Below are positions 37,552 through 43,810 of a stretch of 64,000 nt of DNA, piece after piece (positions within the stretch are counted from its first letter, which is position 1; every line of letters starts with the position of its first letter). Made by a program: the position numbers and the translations under genes. This DNA comes from Pseudomonas paraeruginosa PA7. GTDB lineage: Bacteria > Pseudomonadota > Gammaproteobacteria > Pseudomonadales > Pseudomonadaceae. The notes under the pieces are model-generated. The model did no database searches, was not told where the DNA came from, and saw nothing but the letters and a program-made list of their open reading frames with translations. The stretch is taken from contig NC_009656.1 in assembly GCF_000017205.1 (NCBI RefSeq), forward strand, positions 4,096,001-4,160,000, given 5' to 3'.

Positions 37552-38145
37552 GTGGCCGCCGACCGCCTGTTCCAGGCCATGCTCGGCAACCCGTCCGGGG
37601 TGGTCTTCGCCGAAACCAACCACGCCGAAAGCTGGCAGGCCGTGGCCCGTCCCGAGCAGCGGATCAACCTGCACATCCCCGAACTGTTGCCGGAACTGGC
37701 CAGGCTCGCCCACAGCGCGCCGTCCCACGACCCGGCCTCCCCCTTCATCCTCGCCGCCGGCGAGCGGCGCAGCGACACCAGCAATACCGCCGTGCGCGAC
37801 ACCGGCTGGCACCGCCGCGGGCGCTACGGCACCCTGCGCATCAGCCCGCAGGACGCCGAGGCGCTGGGCTGCGCCGACGGCGAGGTGCTGCGCGTGGTGA
37901 CCCGTCGCGGCGGCGTCGAGGCGGAAGTGGAGATCAGCGACATGATGCAGCCGGGCAATGTCTCCCTGCCCAACGGCCAGGGCCTGGAATACCGCAACGC
38001 CAACGGCGAGGTAGTGCGCCGGGGCGTGGCGCCCAACGAGGTGACCGACTGCAGCCAGCGCGACTTCCTCGCCGGCACGCCCTGGCACAAGTACGTGCCG
38101 GCGCGCCTGGAGCGGTTGGCGCCGGCCGCGCCGGCCGACGCCTGA
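37552..38145 (+). pseudogene. Molybdopterin oxidoreductase, C-terminal remnant
   Basis: The frame reads VAADRLFQAMLGNPSGVVFA, then HDPASPFILAAGERRSDTSN and PGNVSLPNGQGLEYRNANGE, which is the C-terminal molydop_binding domain of DMSO-reductase-type molybdenum enzymes, about 197 residues. The N-terminal Fe-S and most of the molybdopterin-binding parts, some 450 or more residues, are missing. A GTG at 37552 marks where the homologous frame begins, 63 bases after the DMT stop. In PAO1, as I recall, a full oxidoreductase (PA2714) stands before the ferredoxin. The fragment ends just before the ferredoxin start, so that end of the old operon is intact. Confidence 0.75.
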
Positions 38146-38161
38146 GCCGGGAGAGACGATC

Positions 38162-38500
38162 ATGACCTTCGTCGTGCTGGAAGAATGCATCCGCTGCAAG
38201 CACACCGACTGCGTGGAAGTCTGTCCTGTGGACTGCTTCTACGAAGGCCCGAACTTCCTCGTCATCCACCCCGAGGAGTGCATCGACTGCGCGCTCTGCG
38301 AGCCGGAATGCCCGGTCGCCGCGATCCGCGCCGAGGACGAGGTGCCGCTCGGGCAACGGCAGTTCATCGGCCTCAACGGCGAACTCGCCGCGCATCCCAA
38401 CTGGACGCGGATCACCCGCAAGAAGCCGGCGCCCGACGACCACGACGCCTGGTTCGGCATGCCGGGCAAGCTGGCCGAACTCGACCGCAACGGCGCCTGA
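38162..38500 (+). CDS. Seven-iron ferredoxin (FdxA type)
   Basis: The 112-residue protein has the two cluster motifs of 7Fe ferredoxins: C-x2-C-x4-C-x3-CP with an extra Cys ([20 protein letters not shown]) and C-x2-C-x2-C-x3-CP ([14 protein letters not shown]), giving a [3Fe-4S] and a [4Fe-4S] cluster. It ends with the C-terminal extension of FdxA proteins. GGGAGAG precedes the ATG. It lies 16 bases after the truncated molybdopterin oxidoreductase, its likely original partner, and remains intact although that enzyme is gone. Confidence 0.88.
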
Positions 38501-38514
38501 GGCGCGGACAGCGC

Positions 38515-39750
38515 TCAGGCTTCGGCGCGCGAACGCATGAGCCGCCGGTAGCGACGGGTCTGCAGGAACGCGCCGGTCTGCTGCGCGAACAGCGCGCACA
38601 AAGGCGACACCCGTGGGTTGGTCGCCCTGCCCCGGCTCAGCTTGCGCAACTGAAACTTCACCGCCGCCATGTTCGCCAGCGAGGCCAGGGGTTTGTTCTT
38701 CCAGGTTATCGGCCGCAGCTGCGGCGCCGGGTCCCTGCCGGCGCGCCAGTCGCGCGGCAGGCCCGGCTCGAGGGCCAGCGCCGTGCCGATGCCGACCATG
38801 TCCACCCCGCTGGCCAGCACCTGCTCGGCCACCGGCCGTCGGCGAATGCCTCCCGTGACCATCACCGGCATCCGCGCCACCGTGCGGATGTCGCGGGCGA
38901 ACTCGACGAAGTAGGCCTCGCGGGCCAGGGTCCGTCCATCGCGCGCCTCGCCATGCATGGCCGGTGCCTCGTAGCTGCCGCCCGACAGCTCGACCAGGTC
39001 GACGCCCAGGCCATCGAGCATCCGTACCACCTCGCGGGCATCGTCGGCGCTGAAGCCGCCACGCTGGAAGTCGGCGGAATTCAGCTTCACCGCCACCGCG
39101 AAAGCGGGGGAAACCTCGGCGCGCACCGCCCGGACGATCTCCAGCAGCAGGCGTGCGCGGTTCTCCAGGGAACCGCCCCAGGCATCCTCGCGACGGTTGC
39201 TCAGCGGCGAGAGGAACTGGCTGAGCAGGTAGCCGTGGGCGGCGTGGATCTGCACCCCGCTGAAGCCGGCCCGTTCGGCCAGCGCGGCGCTGCGGACGAA
39301 TCGCCGGATGACCTCGGCGATCATCGCCTCGTCCATCGCCCGCGGCGTGGCGAAGTGCTTCGACAGCCCGCCCAGCTCCAGCGGCACCGCCGAGGGTGCC
39401 CAGGCCTGCTGGCCGAGGTTGGCCTGCATCTGCCGGCCCGGATGGTTGATCTGCAACCAGAACTGCGCGCCGGCGGAACGGCCGATACGCGCCCAGCGGC
39501 GGAATTTCTCCAGTTGCGCATCGTCTTCCAGGACCACCCCGCCAGGGCCGGTCATGGCGCGGCTGTCGATCATCACGTTGCCGCTGATCAGCAACCCGGC
39601 GCCGCCATCGGCCCAGGCCTGGTAGAGACGCATCAGCGCCTCGGAGGGCGCCTGCCCGGCGTCCGCCATGTTCTCTTCCATGGCGGCCTTGGCAATGCGG
39701 TTGGGGAGGGTCGAACCGTTGGGGAGCGAGAGGGGGTCGAACAGGTTCAT
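38515..39750 (-). CDS. Old-yellow-enzyme-type FMN oxidoreductase
   Basis: The 411-residue protein has an OYE-like (NADH:flavin oxidoreductase) TIM barrel: LFDPLSLPNGSTLPNRIAKA, FWLQINHPGRQ, AGFSGVQIHAAHGYLLSQFL with the His-Ala-Ala-His-Gly active-site stretch, NRREDAWGGSLENRARLLLE, and the phosphate site ASGVDMVGIGTALALEPGLP. Such enzymes reduce activated alkenes such as quinones or enals. GAGGTAG precedes the ATG. Its promoter (39779-39809) has a MerR-type operator shared with the cpo and DJ-1 genes nearby, so it is probably induced with them by electrophile or oxidant stress. It corresponds to PA2716. Confidence 0.87.
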   Translation of the reverse strand: MNLFDPLSLPNGSTLPNRIAKAAMEENMADAGQAPSEALMRLYQAWADGGAGLLISGNVMIDSRAMTGPGGVVLEDDAQLEKFRRWARIGRSAGAQFWLQINHPGRQMQANLGQQAWAPSAVPLELGGLSKHFATPRAMDEAMIAEVIRRFVRSAALAERAGFSGVQIHAAHGYLLSQFLSPLSNRREDAWGGSLENRARLLLEIVRAVRAEVSPAFAVAVKLNSADFQRGGFSADDAREVVRMLDGLGVDLVELSGGSYEAPAMHGEARDGRTLAREAYFVEFARDIRTVARMPVMVTGGIRRRPVAEQVLASGVDMVGIGTALALEPGLPRDWRAGRDPAPQLRPITWKNKPLASLANMAAVKFQLRKLSRGRATNPRVSPLCALFAQQTGAFLQTRRYRRLMRSRAEA

Positions 39751-39778
39751 GGGGCTACCTCGTAAGGACAGTGGCCCG

Positions 39779-39809
39779 ACGATAAGATTGAAGTGAACTT
39801 CAAGGTCAA
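39779..39809 (-). promoter_or_regulatory. MerR-type promoter of the FMN oxidoreductase gene
   Basis: On the minus strand TTGACC (39804-39809) and TATCGT (39779-39784) are separated by 19 bases, the long spacing that MerR-family activators correct by twisting DNA. The spacer holds the perfect inverted repeat TTGAAGT-TC-ACTTCAA (39788-39803). Start of transcription would be near 39772, 22 bases before the ATG. Confidence 0.72.
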
Positions 39810-39874
39810 TGCTTTTTTCCCATCCACCGGTTCGGTAGTGGCCGCCGGGCATGCCTGCCCGGCGGCCGTCACGC

Positions 39875-40705
39875 TCAACCGCGGATGAACGCCAGCAGGT
39901 CGGCGTTGATCACCTCGGCCTGGGTGGTCGGCATCCCGTGCGGGTAGCCCGGATAGGTCTTCAGCGTGCCGTTGCGCAGCAGCTTCGCCGAGCGTACGCC
40001 GGAGTTCTCGTAGGGCACGATCTGGTCGTCGTCGCCGTGCATCACCAGCACCGGGATGTCGATGCGCTTGAGGTCTTCGCTGAAATCGGTCTGGGAAAAG
40101 GCCACGATCCCGTCGTAGTGGGCCTTGGCGCCGCCCATCATGCCCTGCCGCCACCAGTTGCGGATGATCCCTTCCGAGGGCTTCGCCCCAGGTCGGTTGT
40201 AGCCGTAGAACGGGCCGGCGGGAATGTCCTGGTAGAACTGCGCGCGGTTCGCCGCCAGCTGCGCCTGCAGGTCGTCGAAGACGCTCTTCGGCAGGCCGCC
40301 GGGGTTGCCCTCGGTCTTCACCATCAGCGGCGGCACGGCGCTGATGATCGCCGCCTTCGGCACCGGGTCGTCGGGATAGCGGGCGATGTAGTGGACCACC
40401 TCGCCGCCGCCGGTGGAATGGCCGACGTGGATCGCGCCGCGCACCCCGAGGTGCTCGACCACCGCCGCCACGTCGTCGGCGTAGTGATCCATGTCGTGAC
40501 CATCCCAGACCTGGCTGGAGCGTCCGTGGCCACGGCGGTCGTGGGCGACCACGCGGAAACCTTCGGCGAGGAAGAACAGCATCTGCGCATCCCAGTCGTC
40601 GGCGCTCAGCGGCCAGCCATGATGGAAACAGATCACCTGGGCGTCGCGCGGCCCCCAGTCCTTGTAGAAGATCTCGACGCCATCCTTCGTTGTCACATAA
40701 CCCAT
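39875..40705 (-). CDS. cpo: Cofactor-free haloperoxidase-type alpha/beta hydrolase (chloroperoxidase)
   Basis: The 276-residue enzyme has an alpha/beta fold with oxyanion motif FHHGWPLSADDWD, nucleophile elbow GHSTGGGEV with Ser97, the acid loop VMHGDDDQIVPYEN and the late His in YPGYPHGM. Family members act as esterases and perhydrolases and can form peracids that halogenate substrates. GGGAGAAG precedes the ATG. The promoter at 40875-40905 is MerR-type and is shared with the divergent merR gene. It corresponds to PA2717 (cpo) by memory and should belong to the same regulon as the FMN oxidoreductase and the DJ-1 protein. Confidence 0.87.
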   Translation of the reverse strand: MGYVTTKDGVEIFYKDWGPRDAQVICFHHGWPLSADDWDAQMLFFLAEGFRVVAHDRRGHGRSSQVWDGHDMDHYADDVAAVVEHLGVRGAIHVGHSTGGGEVVHYIARYPDDPVPKAAIISAVPPLMVKTEGNPGGLPKSVFDDLQAQLAANRAQFYQDIPAGPFYGYNRPGAKPSEGIIRNWWRQGMMGGAKAHYDGIVAFSQTDFSEDLKRIDIPVLVMHGDDDQIVPYENSGVRSAKLLRNGTLKTYPGYPHGMPTTQAEVINADLLAFIRG

Positions 40706-40874
40706 GTCGCTTCTCCCGCTCTGGTGTGGATGCAGGCACCCGCGCGACAACGTCGGCGGGCACCCCGTGTAGAGTAGAAAGCCGCCGCCGGCGCGCCGCC
40801 TCGACGAGGAAAACGCGACCGACGGTAGCGCGCCGGCGACCAGCCTGTCGTGTTCGTCGCCCGGCGGTGAAACG

Positions 40875-40905
40875 ACCCTAGGCTTGAAGTAGGCTTGAAG
40901 GTCAA
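40875..40905 (-). promoter_or_regulatory. MerR-type promoter of cpo, in the cpo-merR gap
   Basis: On the minus strand TTGACC (40900-40905), 19 bases and TAGGGT (40875-40880). The spacer TTCAAGCCTACTTCAAGCC keeps the ACTTCAA half seen in the other two sites, while the other half is changed (TTCAAGC instead of TTGAAGT), giving a direct-repeat look. The site lies 18 bases before the merR ATG, so it may also control merR itself. The leader to cpo would be about 163 bases. Confidence 0.6.
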
Positions 40906-40923
40906 CGCATTTCGAGGTGCGAC

Positions 40924-41355
40924 ATGAAAATCGGCGAACTGGCGAAACTCACCGGCCTGGCGACTTCGCGCATCCGCTTCTACGAGGCCAGCGGGCTGAT
41001 CCGCTCGCAGCGCAGGGCCAACGGCTACCGCGACTACACGGCGGACACCGTGTGGATCCTGAAGCTGGTCACCGGCGCCCAGGCCGCCGGCTTCTCCCTG
41101 GAGGAGATCGCTCGCCTGCTGCCGAGCGGCGACGGCGCCTGGCAGCACGGCGAGCTGCTCGAAGGCTTGCGCCGCAAGGTGGCCGAGATCGAGGCCCTGC
41201 AACGACGCCTGGAACAGAACAAGGCGCAATTGCTGCTGGCCATCGAGAGCATCGAGAACAAGCCGGAAGGCCTGCAGTGTACGGAGAACACCCAGCGCGT
41301 GCTGGAGCGTCTGCGCGAGGAAAGCCGCTTACAGAACGCCGGGCCTGCACGGTAA
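40924..41355 (+). CDS. MerR-family transcriptional regulator
   Basis: The 143-residue protein has the MerR winged helix (MKIGELAKLTGLATSRIRFY EASGLI), RRANGYRDYT as wing, and a long dimer helix (about 78-112). The only cysteine is C119 near the C-terminus, in GLQCTEN, so a one-cysteine redox or electrophile switch is possible, but a metal site of the MerR or ZntR type is absent. GAGGTG precedes the ATG. The gene sits between cpo and the DJ-1 gene, and three 19-base-spacer promoters with matching operators surround it, which marks it as their activator. It corresponds to PA2718. Confidence 0.88.
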   Translation: MKIGELAKLTGLATSRIRFYEASGLIRSQRRANGYRDYTADTVWILKLVTGAQAAGFSLEEIARLLPSGDGAWQHGELLEGLRRKVAEIEALQRRLEQNKAQLLLAIESIENKPEGLQCTENTQRVLERLREESRLQNAGPAR

Positions 41356-41397
41356 ACCCGGCGCCCTCTCCCGCGCCGGCGGAGCAGCGGCTTTCAC

Positions 41398-41428
41398 TTG
41401 ACCTTGAAGCTGACTTCAACCCTAGAGT
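41398..41428 (+). promoter_or_regulatory. MerR-type promoter of the DJ-1/PfpI gene
   Basis: TTGACC (41398-41403), 19 bases, TAGAGT (41423-41428). The spacer contains TTGAAG-CTGA-CTTCAA, a perfect inverted repeat like that at 39788-39803. The predicted transcript starts near 41435, about 65 bases before the ATG. It is read away from merR, so the gene is activated separately from cpo but by the same protein. Confidence 0.72.
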
Positions 41429-41499
41429 GACGCCAACCCGCCCGGACGGCATGCCGAAACCGGCGCCGGCGGGATCACTCACCGAGGAAGGTCAACGCA

Positions 41500-42186
41500 A
41501 TGACCAAGCGCATCCTGCACGTCGTCACCAACGTCGCCCACTATGCCGATCCGACCCAGCCCACCGGGCTGTGGCTGTCGGAGTTGACCCATGCCTACGA
41601 GATCTTCGCCGCCCGGGGCTACCAGCAACGCCTGGTCAGCCCCCGCGGCGGCGAGTCGCCACTGGAGCCACGCGCCCTCGGCTGGCCCCACGCCGATGCC
41701 AGCGCCAAGGCCTGGCTGGCCGACGAGGCGCTACTGGCGCTACTGGCCGACACCGCCGCTCCCGAACAGGTCGACGCGGAGGCCTTCGACGCCATCTATT
41801 TCACCGGTGGCCACGGCGTGATGTGGGACTTCCCCGACGCCGCCGGGCTGCAGCGCCTGACCCGCGAGATCTACCAGCGCGGCGGCATCGTCTCGTCGGT
41901 CTGCCATGGCTATTGCGGCCTGCTCAACACACGCCTGGACGATGGCCGCCTGCTGGTCGCCGGGCGCCGCCTCACCGGCTATTCCTGGATCGAGGAGGTG
42001 CTCGCCGGGGTCGCCCGCAAGGTGCCGTACAACGTCGAGGAAGAAATGAAACGGCGCGGCGCGCTATACGAAAGGAGCCTGCTGCCGTTCACCAGCAAGG
42101 TGGTGGTCGACGGCCGACTGGTCACCGGGCAGAACCCGCAGTCGGCCAGGGCCACGGCCGAGCGGGTGGCCGCCCTGCTCGGCTGA
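41500..42186 (+). CDS. DJ-1/PfpI family protein (Hsp31-like)
   Basis: The 228-residue protein has the type 1 glutamine-amidotransferase-like fold with the nucleophile elbow VSSVCHGYCG, Cys135 followed by His136, the partner acid in AYEIFAA and the FTGGHGVMWD strand loop. Length and sequence fit Hsp31/YajL-type proteins, which deal with methylglyoxal or protect proteins from carbonyl damage. GAGGAAGG is 8 bases before the ATG. It has a MerR-type promoter and probably belongs to an electrophile or oxidative stress regulon with cpo and the FMN oxidoreductase. It corresponds to PA2719. Confidence 0.88.
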   Translation: MTKRILHVVTNVAHYADPTQPTGLWLSELTHAYEIFAARGYQQRLVSPRGGESPLEPRALGWPHADASAKAWLADEALLALLADTAAPEQVDAEAFDAIYFTGGHGVMWDFPDAAGLQRLTREIYQRGGIVSSVCHGYCGLLNTRLDDGRLLVAGRRLTGYSWIEEVLAGVARKVPYNVEEEMKRRGALYERSLLPFTSKVVVDGRLVTGQNPQSARATAERVAALLG

Positions 42187-42198
42187 GCGCGCGGCGCT

Positions 42199-43038
42199 TC
42201 AGTCCTGCGCACGCCTCACCTGGAAGTCGTGGCGCCGCTTGCCGATTAAGAACGACATCTGCATCGTCCCGTCGGCCAGGGGCCGCAGGATCGTCGCAGT
42301 GCTGGTCTTGTGGTAGGGGTGGCTGAACAGCGCCGGCTTTTCCGTGTAGGCGTAGCTGCGGAAATGCAGCTCGTCGCCGACCCAGCGCACGTCGTTGTAG
42401 AGGTGCCGCCAGTTATCGCTGTCGGCCATGTACAGGCGGGCGCCGCCGTCCGCGTCGCGGAGCACTTCGAGCTGTACGCCGTCGTCGTTCGCCCAGCGGC
42501 CGATATAGCGCTCCAGGCCGACATGCGGGGGAATCGCCGGCGCGGGGAGGAAGTCGCCGCTGCGGTACGGCGTCAGCCTGCCGCGCTCGGCGTCCGTGTT
42601 GTACATCCCGCACAGCGAGGCGACCCTGTCCACCTTCAGGTAATCGAAGGTCAGCTCGGCGCTGGCGATGCGCATGCCCAGGCGCATCGCCTGGGGCTTG
42701 AAGTCCAGAACCCGCAGGTCGAACTCGTCGAAGGGCGACCTGACATGGATGGAGCCGCCATCGTCGGCCACCCGGTAGTCGGACGTTTCGATCTCCCGAC
42801 GTTCGTCGAGCTTCGAGCAGTTGAAGGGGTGCAGCAGCACCTTGCCGTCCGCCCGGTACTCGGCGACGTTGGCGATGCCGTTGCGCAGCGGCAGCATGGC
42901 CCAGATGCCGACGATGCGGCTCTGGTCCTCGGCGAGGGGCGACGACGGGGCGGGTTCCCCCGCCTCCTTGTGGGCGCAGCCGCCCAGGACCAGGGCGGCC
43001 AGGGCGAAAGGAAGGAATCTGTTCGGCATGCGGGTCAT
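42199..43038 (-). CDS. Lipoprotein with lipocalin-like repeats, function unknown
   Basis: The 279-residue protein has a signal peptide and lipobox (ALAALVLGGC, Cys21), so it is a lipoprotein. Two similar beta-rich halves follow: RIVGIWAMLPLRNGIANVAE and ERYIGRWANDDGVQLEVLRD, each like the start of a lipocalin-like domain. The start could be the ATG at 43038 or 43029; the second has GGA at a good distance. No neighbour explains it, and it is convergent with the DJ-1 gene. I do not recognise a function. Confidence 0.7.
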   Translation of the reverse strand: MTRMPNRFLPFALAALVLGGCAHKEAGEPAPSSPLAEDQSRIVGIWAMLPLRNGIANVAEYRADGKVLLHPFNCSKLDERREIETSDYRVADDGGSIHVRSPFDEFDLRVLDFKPQAMRLGMRIASAELTFDYLKVDRVASLCGMYNTDAERGRLTPYRSGDFLPAPAIPPHVGLERYIGRWANDDGVQLEVLRDADGGARLYMADSDNWRHLYNDVRWVGDELHFRSYAYTEKPALFSHPYHKTSTATILRPLADGTMQMSFLIGKRRHDFQVRRAQD

Positions 43039-43171
43039 CCATGATTCGTTGGCGAAAACCCCCAGCGCCGCGCTGGAGCATGGCGTTCGCGGACGGCTGC
43101 GGAGCGTAGCGCAGAGCGCCGCTCCGCTGCCAGCGACCGGTTCCGCCTTGCGGGCTGCGCGACGCGGCGGC

Positions 43172-43810
43172 CTATGCCAGCGGCTTGAGCATCAGGAAGT
43201 TGCGCACGCTGTAGTAACCCTGCGAATCCCGCCAGTCGAGAGCGGCCAGGCTCTGCATGCCGGCCTCCCACGGCTGGTTGTCGAACAGCGCTTCCACCGT
43301 GCGCTGGTTGCCGAAGGCGCAGAAGAAATGCCGGAACCAGTGCAGGCGCGGGTCCAGCGGCTCGGCGCGGATCGCCCGCTCGATGCCCGGGAACAGCCCC
43401 GCCGGCAGCGCTGGCGCCTTGCCCTCGGCACCGCGCAGGCCGAGGTTGCCGATGTGCGCCTCGAAACGCCGCTCGCCGATCTCCCAGGTTTCCACCAGCA
43501 CCTGGTCCTCCCCGGCATGTCCCCAGAACACCGAGAGCAGGACATGCAGGGAATTGGAGCAGAAATTGCGCAACGCGTCCTGCAAACCCTCCTCGCCGCC
43601 ACCGATGCCGGCGAAGGCCTCCTGCAACTGGCGCTCGTCCTCCAGCAGCACGTCGACATCCAGCCGTCCGGTCTTCTCCCCCGGGTACCAGGTGGCGCGG
43701 ATCGCCGGCAGCCGCCCGTTGGGTGCCACCCATTCGCCGTGCGCGACGTACTCGATCTGGTGGGAGTCGAACAGTGCAGCCAGGTGCTGCGAGGCGGAGA
43801 CCGCTTCCAT
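43172..43810 (-). CDS. Conserved protein of unknown function
   Basis: The 212-residue protein (MEAVSASQHLAALFDSHQIE onward) is acidic and soluble, without signal peptide or membrane segment. It has RLDVDVLLEDERQLQEAFAG and a C-terminal stretch WRDSQGYYSVRNFLMLKP. I do not recognise a domain; conserved tryptophans suggest a folded alpha/beta protein. The ATG at 43810 follows AAGGGAC at 8 bases; a start at 43825 has no site. It is divergent from the VOC gene and follows no operon. Confidence 0.7.
   Translation of the reverse strand: MEAVSASQHLAALFDSHQIEYVAHGEWVAPNGRLPAIRATWYPGEKTGRLDVDVLLEDERQLQEAFAGIGGGEEGLQDALRNFCSNSLHVLLSVFWGHAGEDQVLVETWEIGERRFEAHIGNLGLRGAEGKAPALPAGLFPGIERAIRAEPLDPRLHWFRHFFCAFGNQRTVEALFDNQPWEAGMQSLAALDWRDSQGYYSVRNFLMLKPLA

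Follow-up and report, generated by a model that had tools for sequence, protein, structure and literature searches.

A candidate MerR-family regulon defined by a shared 19-base-spacer operator at the cpo locus of Pseudomonas paraeruginosa PA7

INTRODUCTION

A short locus in Pseudomonas paraeruginosa PA7 raises the question of whether a single MerR-family protein controls the old-yellow-enzyme (OYE), cpo and DJ-1/PfpI genes around it from three look-alike promoters and, if so, what signal it senses. Members of the MerR family act at promoters with spacers of 19 to 20 bases, which are kept silent and are activated by distortion of the DNA (PMC9909328). A preliminary description of the locus, made from the sequence by itself, proposed that one MerR protein and three matching promoters make up a local stress regulon and that an electrophile or oxidant is sensed through Cys119. 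It knew of no published account of this set of genes as a regulon, and our search of the open literature likewise brought up none. Here, we ask how well each part of the proposal stands when the operator and the regulator are followed through the PA7 genome and through related genomes. "The window" refers throughout to the whole 64-kb stretch of PA7 DNA that was analyzed.

RESULTS

Three promoters with one geometry

The features of the locus are collected in Table 1. Judging from its position adjoining the MerR gene, the cpo gene of the window is PA2717, and we take the flanking genes to carry the PAO1 numbers PA2716 and PA2719. PA2718 is a MerR-family factor in PAO1 numbering (PMC13086498), and PA2717 is named cpo (PMC9262955; PMC7685553). 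The haloperoxidase/perhydrolase activity ascribed to cpo is an annotation only. An open reading frame at 42199-43038, adjoining the DJ-1 gene, begins like a lipoprotein and matched nothing in Pfam or NCBIfam.

Table 1. Genes and promoter/operator elements of the locus, numbered by position in the window
Feature	Position	Strand	Description
Old-yellow-enzyme (OYE) family FMN oxidoreductase, 411 aa	38515..39750	minus	Pfam Oxidored_FMN 175 bits
OYE gene promoter/operator, MerR-type	39779..39809	minus	TTGACC-N19-TATCGT, dyad TTGAAG-TTCA-CTTCAA; -35 TTGACC 39809-39804; 19-base spacer TTGAAGTTCACTTCAATCT; -10 TATCGT 39784-39779
Alpha/beta hydrolase annotated cpo (chloroperoxidase, PA2717), 276 aa	39875..40705	minus	Pfam Abhydrolase_1 106 bits
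cpo promoter/operator, MerR-type	40875..40905	minus	TTGACC-N19-TAGGGT, weaker dyad TTCAAG-CCTA-CTTCAA; -35 TTGACC 40905-40900; spacer TTCAAGCCTACTTCAAGCC; -10 TAGGGT 40880-40875
MerR-family regulator, 143 aa (PAO1 PA2718)	40924..41355	plus	Pfam MerR_1 PF13411 62.9 bits
DJ-1/PfpI gene promoter/operator, MerR-type	41398..41428	plus	TTGACC-N19-TAGAGT, dyad TTGAAG-CTGA-CTTCAA; -35 TTGACC 41398-41403; spacer TTGAAGCTGACTTCAACCC; -10 TAGAGT 41423-41428
DJ-1/PfpI family protein, 228 aa	41500..42186	plus	Pfam DJ-1_PfpI 49.6 bits

The preliminary description had placed TTGACC, a 19-base spacer and a -10 element before each of the three genes. On reading the sequence, this proved exact to the base, as did all three ranges. 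Each spacer contains the dyad TTGAAG-N4-CTTCAA, and the weaker copy that had been noted at cpo differs from it by one mismatch. All three sites have the arrangement expected of MerR-family targets, a dyad inside a 19- to 20-base spacer of the promoter. From the last base of the -10 to the start codon, the coordinate difference is 29 for OYE, 170 for cpo and 72 for DJ-1. The cpo operator stops at 40905, a short distance before merR begins at 40924. A generic promoter scan with 16- to 18-base spacers found none, as expected because the spacers are 19 bases long, and Rfam gave nothing at gathering score in 38000-43200.

The operator in the PA7 genome

The genome (a single contig of 6,588,339 bases) was scanned for the 22-base pattern TTGACCTTGAAGNNNNCTTCAA. 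When up to three mismatches were allowed, there were nine matches (two with none, one with one and six with three), and the three window sites are the only ones with at most one. The reversed pattern, as a control, gave two matches genome-wide with up to three mismatches. Within the 64-kb window, the 16-base dyad alone matched 20 places when as many as three mismatches were allowed, where 7.4 would be expected; only the three promoter sites matched it with zero or one. A weight matrix of 31 positions, built from 92 sites in the loci of the best 80 of 573 relatives, scored the window sites at 50.8, 50.4 and 39.7. The best non-overlapping place in the window scored -23, and the peaks in five mononucleotide shuffles ranged from -16 to -24.

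Conservation within the genus

Absence of the three sites from related genomes had been named in advance as a result that would speak against a regulon; the sites are conserved. A merR orthologue (E <= 1e-20) is present in 23 of 25 genus genomes. The window's own operator pattern, with one mismatch allowed, occurs in 16 of the 25 and its reversed control in 0 of 25. A relaxed pattern, TTGACMTTRAAG-N4-CTTYAA, has at least one exact site in all 23 genomes that have a merR orthologue, and no exact site in the two that lack one. Every one of the 23 full-length genus loci has a site 19 to 23 bases before merR that points away from it; 21 of these sites fit the relaxed pattern exactly and 2 with one mismatch. 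The gene served by this merR-adjoining site is OYE in 19 loci and cpo in 3 (the window, L019 and L022), with no assignment in 1. The oldest visible unit is therefore probably merR with a divergent OYE gene, to judge from these gene orders, and the arrangement in the window, with cpo beside merR and with OYE and DJ-1 behind operators of their own, would be a derived form. The DJ-1 operator was found exact only in the window and occurs with one mismatch in two genus relatives.

Named relatives and unlinked sites

We then considered the loci of the best 80 of 573 relatives, ranked by similarity to the window MerR. They include many from Pseudomonas and others from Cupriavidus, Ralstonia, Burkholderia, Paraburkholderia, Variovorax, Chromobacterium, Dyella, Luteimonas, Pseudoxanthomonas, Bradyrhizobium, Rhizobium and Shinella, as well as several bins and an Acidobacteria bin. 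These 80 loci hold 98 sites with at most one mismatch, in 74 loci; the remaining loci are L128, L142, L151, L166, L172 and L177. A -10 of the form T[AG]nnnT stands at 19 bases in 92 of the 98 sites, at 21 in four and at 24 in nine, and at 14-18, 20, 22 and 23 in none (one site may fit two spacings). One shuffle per locus gave 0 sites, as did the reversed pattern. When two mismatches are allowed and a -10 is required, the same best 80 of 573 loci hold 116 sites, which precede genes for OYE (57), cpo (21), acetoacetate-decarboxylase-like (ADC-like) proteins (19), DJ-1 types (7), saccharopine-dehydrogenase-like proteins (2) and epimerases (2), with 8 lacking an assignment. In relatives, the operator precedes more than three gene families, and it is found not only beside merR. 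Judging from these sequences, DJ-1 is the least conserved target.

Some sites are distant from merR. In G006, G015 and G009, each such site lies before an ADC-like gene. In G022, merR and its operator are at 1.69 Mb, and three further sites at 2.77 Mb precede a cpo, an ADC-like and a DJ-1 gene, one site per gene. Unlinked operators before members of the set are the strongest argument for one protein acting in trans.

The ADC-like operators of many relatives have a recurring altered right half, AGTTNAA for ACTTYAA (L020 335, L042 1575, L043 1596, L054 1343, L062 158, L065 3149, L110 7550), which might reflect an adjustment toward weaker or altered binding.

Co-occurrence in the family and phylum

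A sample of 198 family genomes, including the 25 genus genomes, contains a MerR orthologue in 70, the relaxed operator in 64 and the reversed pattern in 0. Both are present in 62 of these related genomes, MerR only in 8, the operator only in 2 and neither in 126 (counts uncorrected for kinship). The two operator-only genomes are G085 and G171, which have no orthologue at E <= 1e-20. Seven of the eight MerR-only genomes have, within the locus, a site of one or two mismatches with a -10 at 19 bases, and the other, G042, has a three-mismatch site only. Among the 75 merR loci, some of which overlap, 62 have a site within 250 bases of merR. The other 13 have no site with up to two mismatches in that range; most of them have one elsewhere in the stretch, and L068 has a three-mismatch site only.

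The relaxed operator occurs at 91 places in the family genomes, corresponding to 88 distinct contexts, and in all 88 a T[AG]nnnT follows exactly 19 bases after the -35, a spacing that was outside the search pattern. OYE or cpo genes lie behind 65 of the 88 (55 OYE and 10 cpo-type hydrolase). The others precede genes for ADC-like proteins (14), peroxiredoxins (2), and DJ-1, epimerase, saccharopine-dehydrogenase-like and aldehyde dehydrogenase proteins (1 each), with no assignment for 3. Independence from the sites holds only for the counts of OYE, cpo and window-type DJ-1, since the ADC-like, epimerase, saccharopine-dehydrogenase-like, aldehyde-dehydrogenase, peroxiredoxin and DJ1b queries were picked for adjoining such sites. 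Two ADC-like proteins scored 28.6 and 24.7 against Pfam, below the cut-off of 29.8 bits. The ADC-like protein of relatives has no match in the PA7 genome at E <= 0.001, in a search run with no positive control.

A wider sample of 398 phylum genomes contains the relaxed pattern in 21, of which 13 belong to the window's family, and the reversed control in 0. Outside the family, only 8 of the 381 genomes sampled carry the operator. The 10 sites in these 8 genomes precede OYE (2), cpo (1), epimerase (1) and peroxiredoxin (2) genes, with 4 lacking an assignment, of which two are near-identical in context and one has no -10.

Operators beside other MerR proteins

Peroxiredoxin genes with a 19-base-spacer operator were found in G085, G171, G499 and G576 (loci L104, L105, L198, L199, L248 and L249). 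A more distant MerR-family protein is encoded within each examined stretch of these four genomes, indicating that the operator is not exclusive to MerR proteins of the window type; related MerR proteins appear to share it. In G499 and G576, a similar operator precedes a gene for a small protein rich in Met, with a distant MerR protein alongside. The gene that follows a related operator at position 1501 of L194 and L195 encodes a small Met-rich, signal-peptide-like product and lies in the vicinity of a distant MerR-family protein.

The regulator protein

The MerR protein of the window has the MerR winged helix-turn-helix domain, PF13411, well above the cut-off of 21.6 bits (Table 1). Cys119 is its sole cysteine, as the preliminary description had said. 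Across 81 proteins, namely the window MerR and its orthologues from the best 80 of 573 relatives, Cys119 is invariant (81/81) and His75 is kept in 78/81. Second, diverged MerR copies are found in loci L121, L134, L135, L143, L158, L169 and L174; these keep Cys119 in 7/7 and His75 in 5/7, and a DJ-1 gene lies near the second copy in 5 of the 7.

The closest solved structures to the window MerR are CueR chains, and its highest NCBIfam scores are with the CueR and MerR models, far below their curated cut-offs. No NCBIfam model reached its cut-off with the window MerR or with four relatives: the window protein scored 66.5 with CueR (cut-off 147.4), 48.5 with SoxR (116.9) and 39.2 with NmlR (175), the four relatives giving 42 to 52 with the NmlR model. 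A profile alignment to CueR puts His75 on Ser77, and a single-sequence alignment puts it one residue away. In metal-sensing members, the Ser77 position contributes from the partner subunit. The PA7 genome has fourteen MerR_1 matches. In a comparison with the plainly MerR-like proteins among 14 automatically picked frames, C119 aligns with the loop cysteine of paralogues that have several tail cysteines.

DISCUSSION

The proposal that one MerR protein and three matching promoters with 19-base spacers form one regulon is strongly supported by the conservation of the operator. By target, the case is good for OYE and cpo, whose operators are common in relatives, and thinner for DJ-1, whose operator was found exact only in the window. 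The description of the regulon as local does not cover relatives, where some members are far from merR.

We consider it likely that this is a MerR regulon in which a reactive carbonyl or related electrophile, the putative inducer, acts at Cys119 and activates the three promoters. The promoter geometry of the window fits the distortion scheme of the MerR family, and by analogy with that family we infer binding, repression and activation as follows. A MerR dimer would sit on the 19-base spacers of the three promoters, which would be nearly silent because their -35 and -10 elements are spaced too widely and lie out of phase. A sensor site built around Cys119, together with His75 (placed by the alignment where it may look into the Cys119 pocket from across the dimer), would be modified or loaded by a reactive carbonyl or a similar electrophile. 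MerR would then kink the DNA and bring on expression of all three targets, ene-reductase, alpha/beta hydrolase and DJ-1/PfpI protein, at the same time. Bound at the cpo site, MerR would regulate merR as well. The signal itself is judged from the enzyme types and the lone cysteine. Ene-reductase, DJ-1, aldehyde dehydrogenase, epimerase-type and decarboxylase-like targets together suggest reactive carbonyls or enones, and an invariant lone cysteine suggests a thiol sensor. Putative sensing of an electrophile or oxidant through Cys119, as originally proposed, is consistent with the invariance of this residue and with targets drawn mostly from carbonyl-handling families.

The same operators could instead serve a catabolic route, with the regulator responding to a non-covalent organic ligand such as a plant or microbial ketone, lactone or quinone rather than to stress. 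Ene-reductase, esterase-type hydrolase, ADC-like, epimerase and aldehyde dehydrogenase targets do look degradative, and gene content differs strongly between species; however, the MerR protein is short (143 aa), matches no ligand-binding domain beyond the MerR DNA-binding models, and has its lone cysteine as an invariant tail residue, so that we regard a catabolic role as unlikely. A metal ion bound by His75 and Cys119, acting through the same operators and regulator, appears improbable. The kinship with CueR in solved structures and NCBIfam scores, the place of C119 at the loop-cysteine position of multi-cysteine paralogues in the same genome, the alignment of His75 with or next to CueR Ser77, and, in G499 and G576, the similar operator of a gene for a Met-rich small protein adjoining a distant MerR all point toward metal. 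On the other hand, only one cysteine is left, the NCBIfam scores are far below cut-off, and 85 of the 88 family sites precede reductase, hydrolase, decarboxylase-like, dehydrogenase, epimerase, peroxiredoxin or DJ-1 genes (3 other), with no metal genes among the assigned operator targets. It is very improbable that a different MerR paralogue is the main occupant of the sites and the neighboring merR a bystander: the genome has many MerR_1 matches and similar operators lie near more distant MerR proteins elsewhere, but a window-type orthologue accompanies the operator in 62 of 64 operator-bearing family genomes, and most merR loci (62 of 75, some overlapping) have a site within 250 bases of merR.

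An electrophile-responsive MerR regulon has its nearest precedent in the NmlR/AdhR system, comprising AdhR (YraB) of Bacillus subtilis and NmlR of Haemophilus and Neisseria. These regulators likewise belong to the MerR family, and theirs is a system that controls carbonyl-stress enzymes. The AdhR operator is reportedly CTTAAAG-N4-CTTTAAG, nearly the same as the relaxed operator described here. The system responds to formaldehyde and methylglyoxal (PMC4776306, PMC6943732), and YraA, a target of B. subtilis AdhR, is described as a cysteine proteinase (PMC4776306) and as a DJ1-family protein (PMC6943732). In the NmlR/AdhR clade, Cys52/54 is absolutely conserved (PMC4776306), whereas it is absent from the window MerR, which has only C119. 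The partner genes there are adhC and estD, in contrast to the OYE, alpha/beta hydrolase and other targets of the window type. CueR and the other metal-sensing MerR proteins, the best relatives of known structure, share the long-spacer promoter mechanism; CueR has two loop cysteines, unlike the window MerR with its one cysteine and a His at or next to the Ser77 position. SoxR has four iron-sulfur cluster cysteines, against one here, and its model score is below cut-off. Electrophile-responsive control of an old yellow enzyme is also known from NemR-nemA of Escherichia coli, but NemR is a TetR-type repressor, whereas the control proposed here is of the MerR type with a 19-base spacer.

Published data touch these genes in several places. 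ChIP-seq of PA2718, the one direct binding study that our search brought up, gave 2,480 peaks, the most of 172 factors, with a tagged protein overexpressed from a plasmid in LB, and the available part of that report mentions no stressor (PMC13086498). So many peaks do not look like a three-promoter regulon, and the overexpression design may be behind their number; as far as the accessible text goes, the result neither confirms nor excludes the three window sites. Expression of cpo rose 9- to 12-fold after inhibition of lipoprotein transport (PMC7685553). PA2716, PA2718 and PA2719 did not come up for that source, so cpo is probably under other control too, although the table there may be partial. 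A direct AlgU promoter before cpo was considered and set aside, the best match having 4 mismatches to the AlgU consensus. PA2718 is in a microarray list (PMC6546240) and cpo in a mutant comparison (PMC10413270), neither of which, in the portions available, shows the regulon. A manuka-honey/methylglyoxal transcriptome names another PfpI-type operon, PA14_56360-56370 (PMC7329319), and PA14_28970, one of the tentative PA14 tags considered for this locus, is described as a putative iron transporter (PMC5039717).

On a wider scale, we tentatively suggest an undescribed MerR reactive-carbonyl regulon that spans several classes of Proteobacteria. A CueR-like metal pocket would have become a one-cysteine electrophile sensor (Cys119 with His75 of the partner subunit), and the enzymes it controls, drawn from up to eight families, would form a modular set reshuffled from species to species under a constant operator; this larger picture is possible but doubtful as a whole. 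The candidate regulon gives a little-studied regulator a precise and testable job, and its exact operator predicts regulon members in any genome. It ties cpo, this type of ene-reductase and the ADC-like proteins, whose physiological role is unclear, to one signal, and it offers a comparison case for the possible conversion of a metal pocket to a thiol sensor within the MerR fold.
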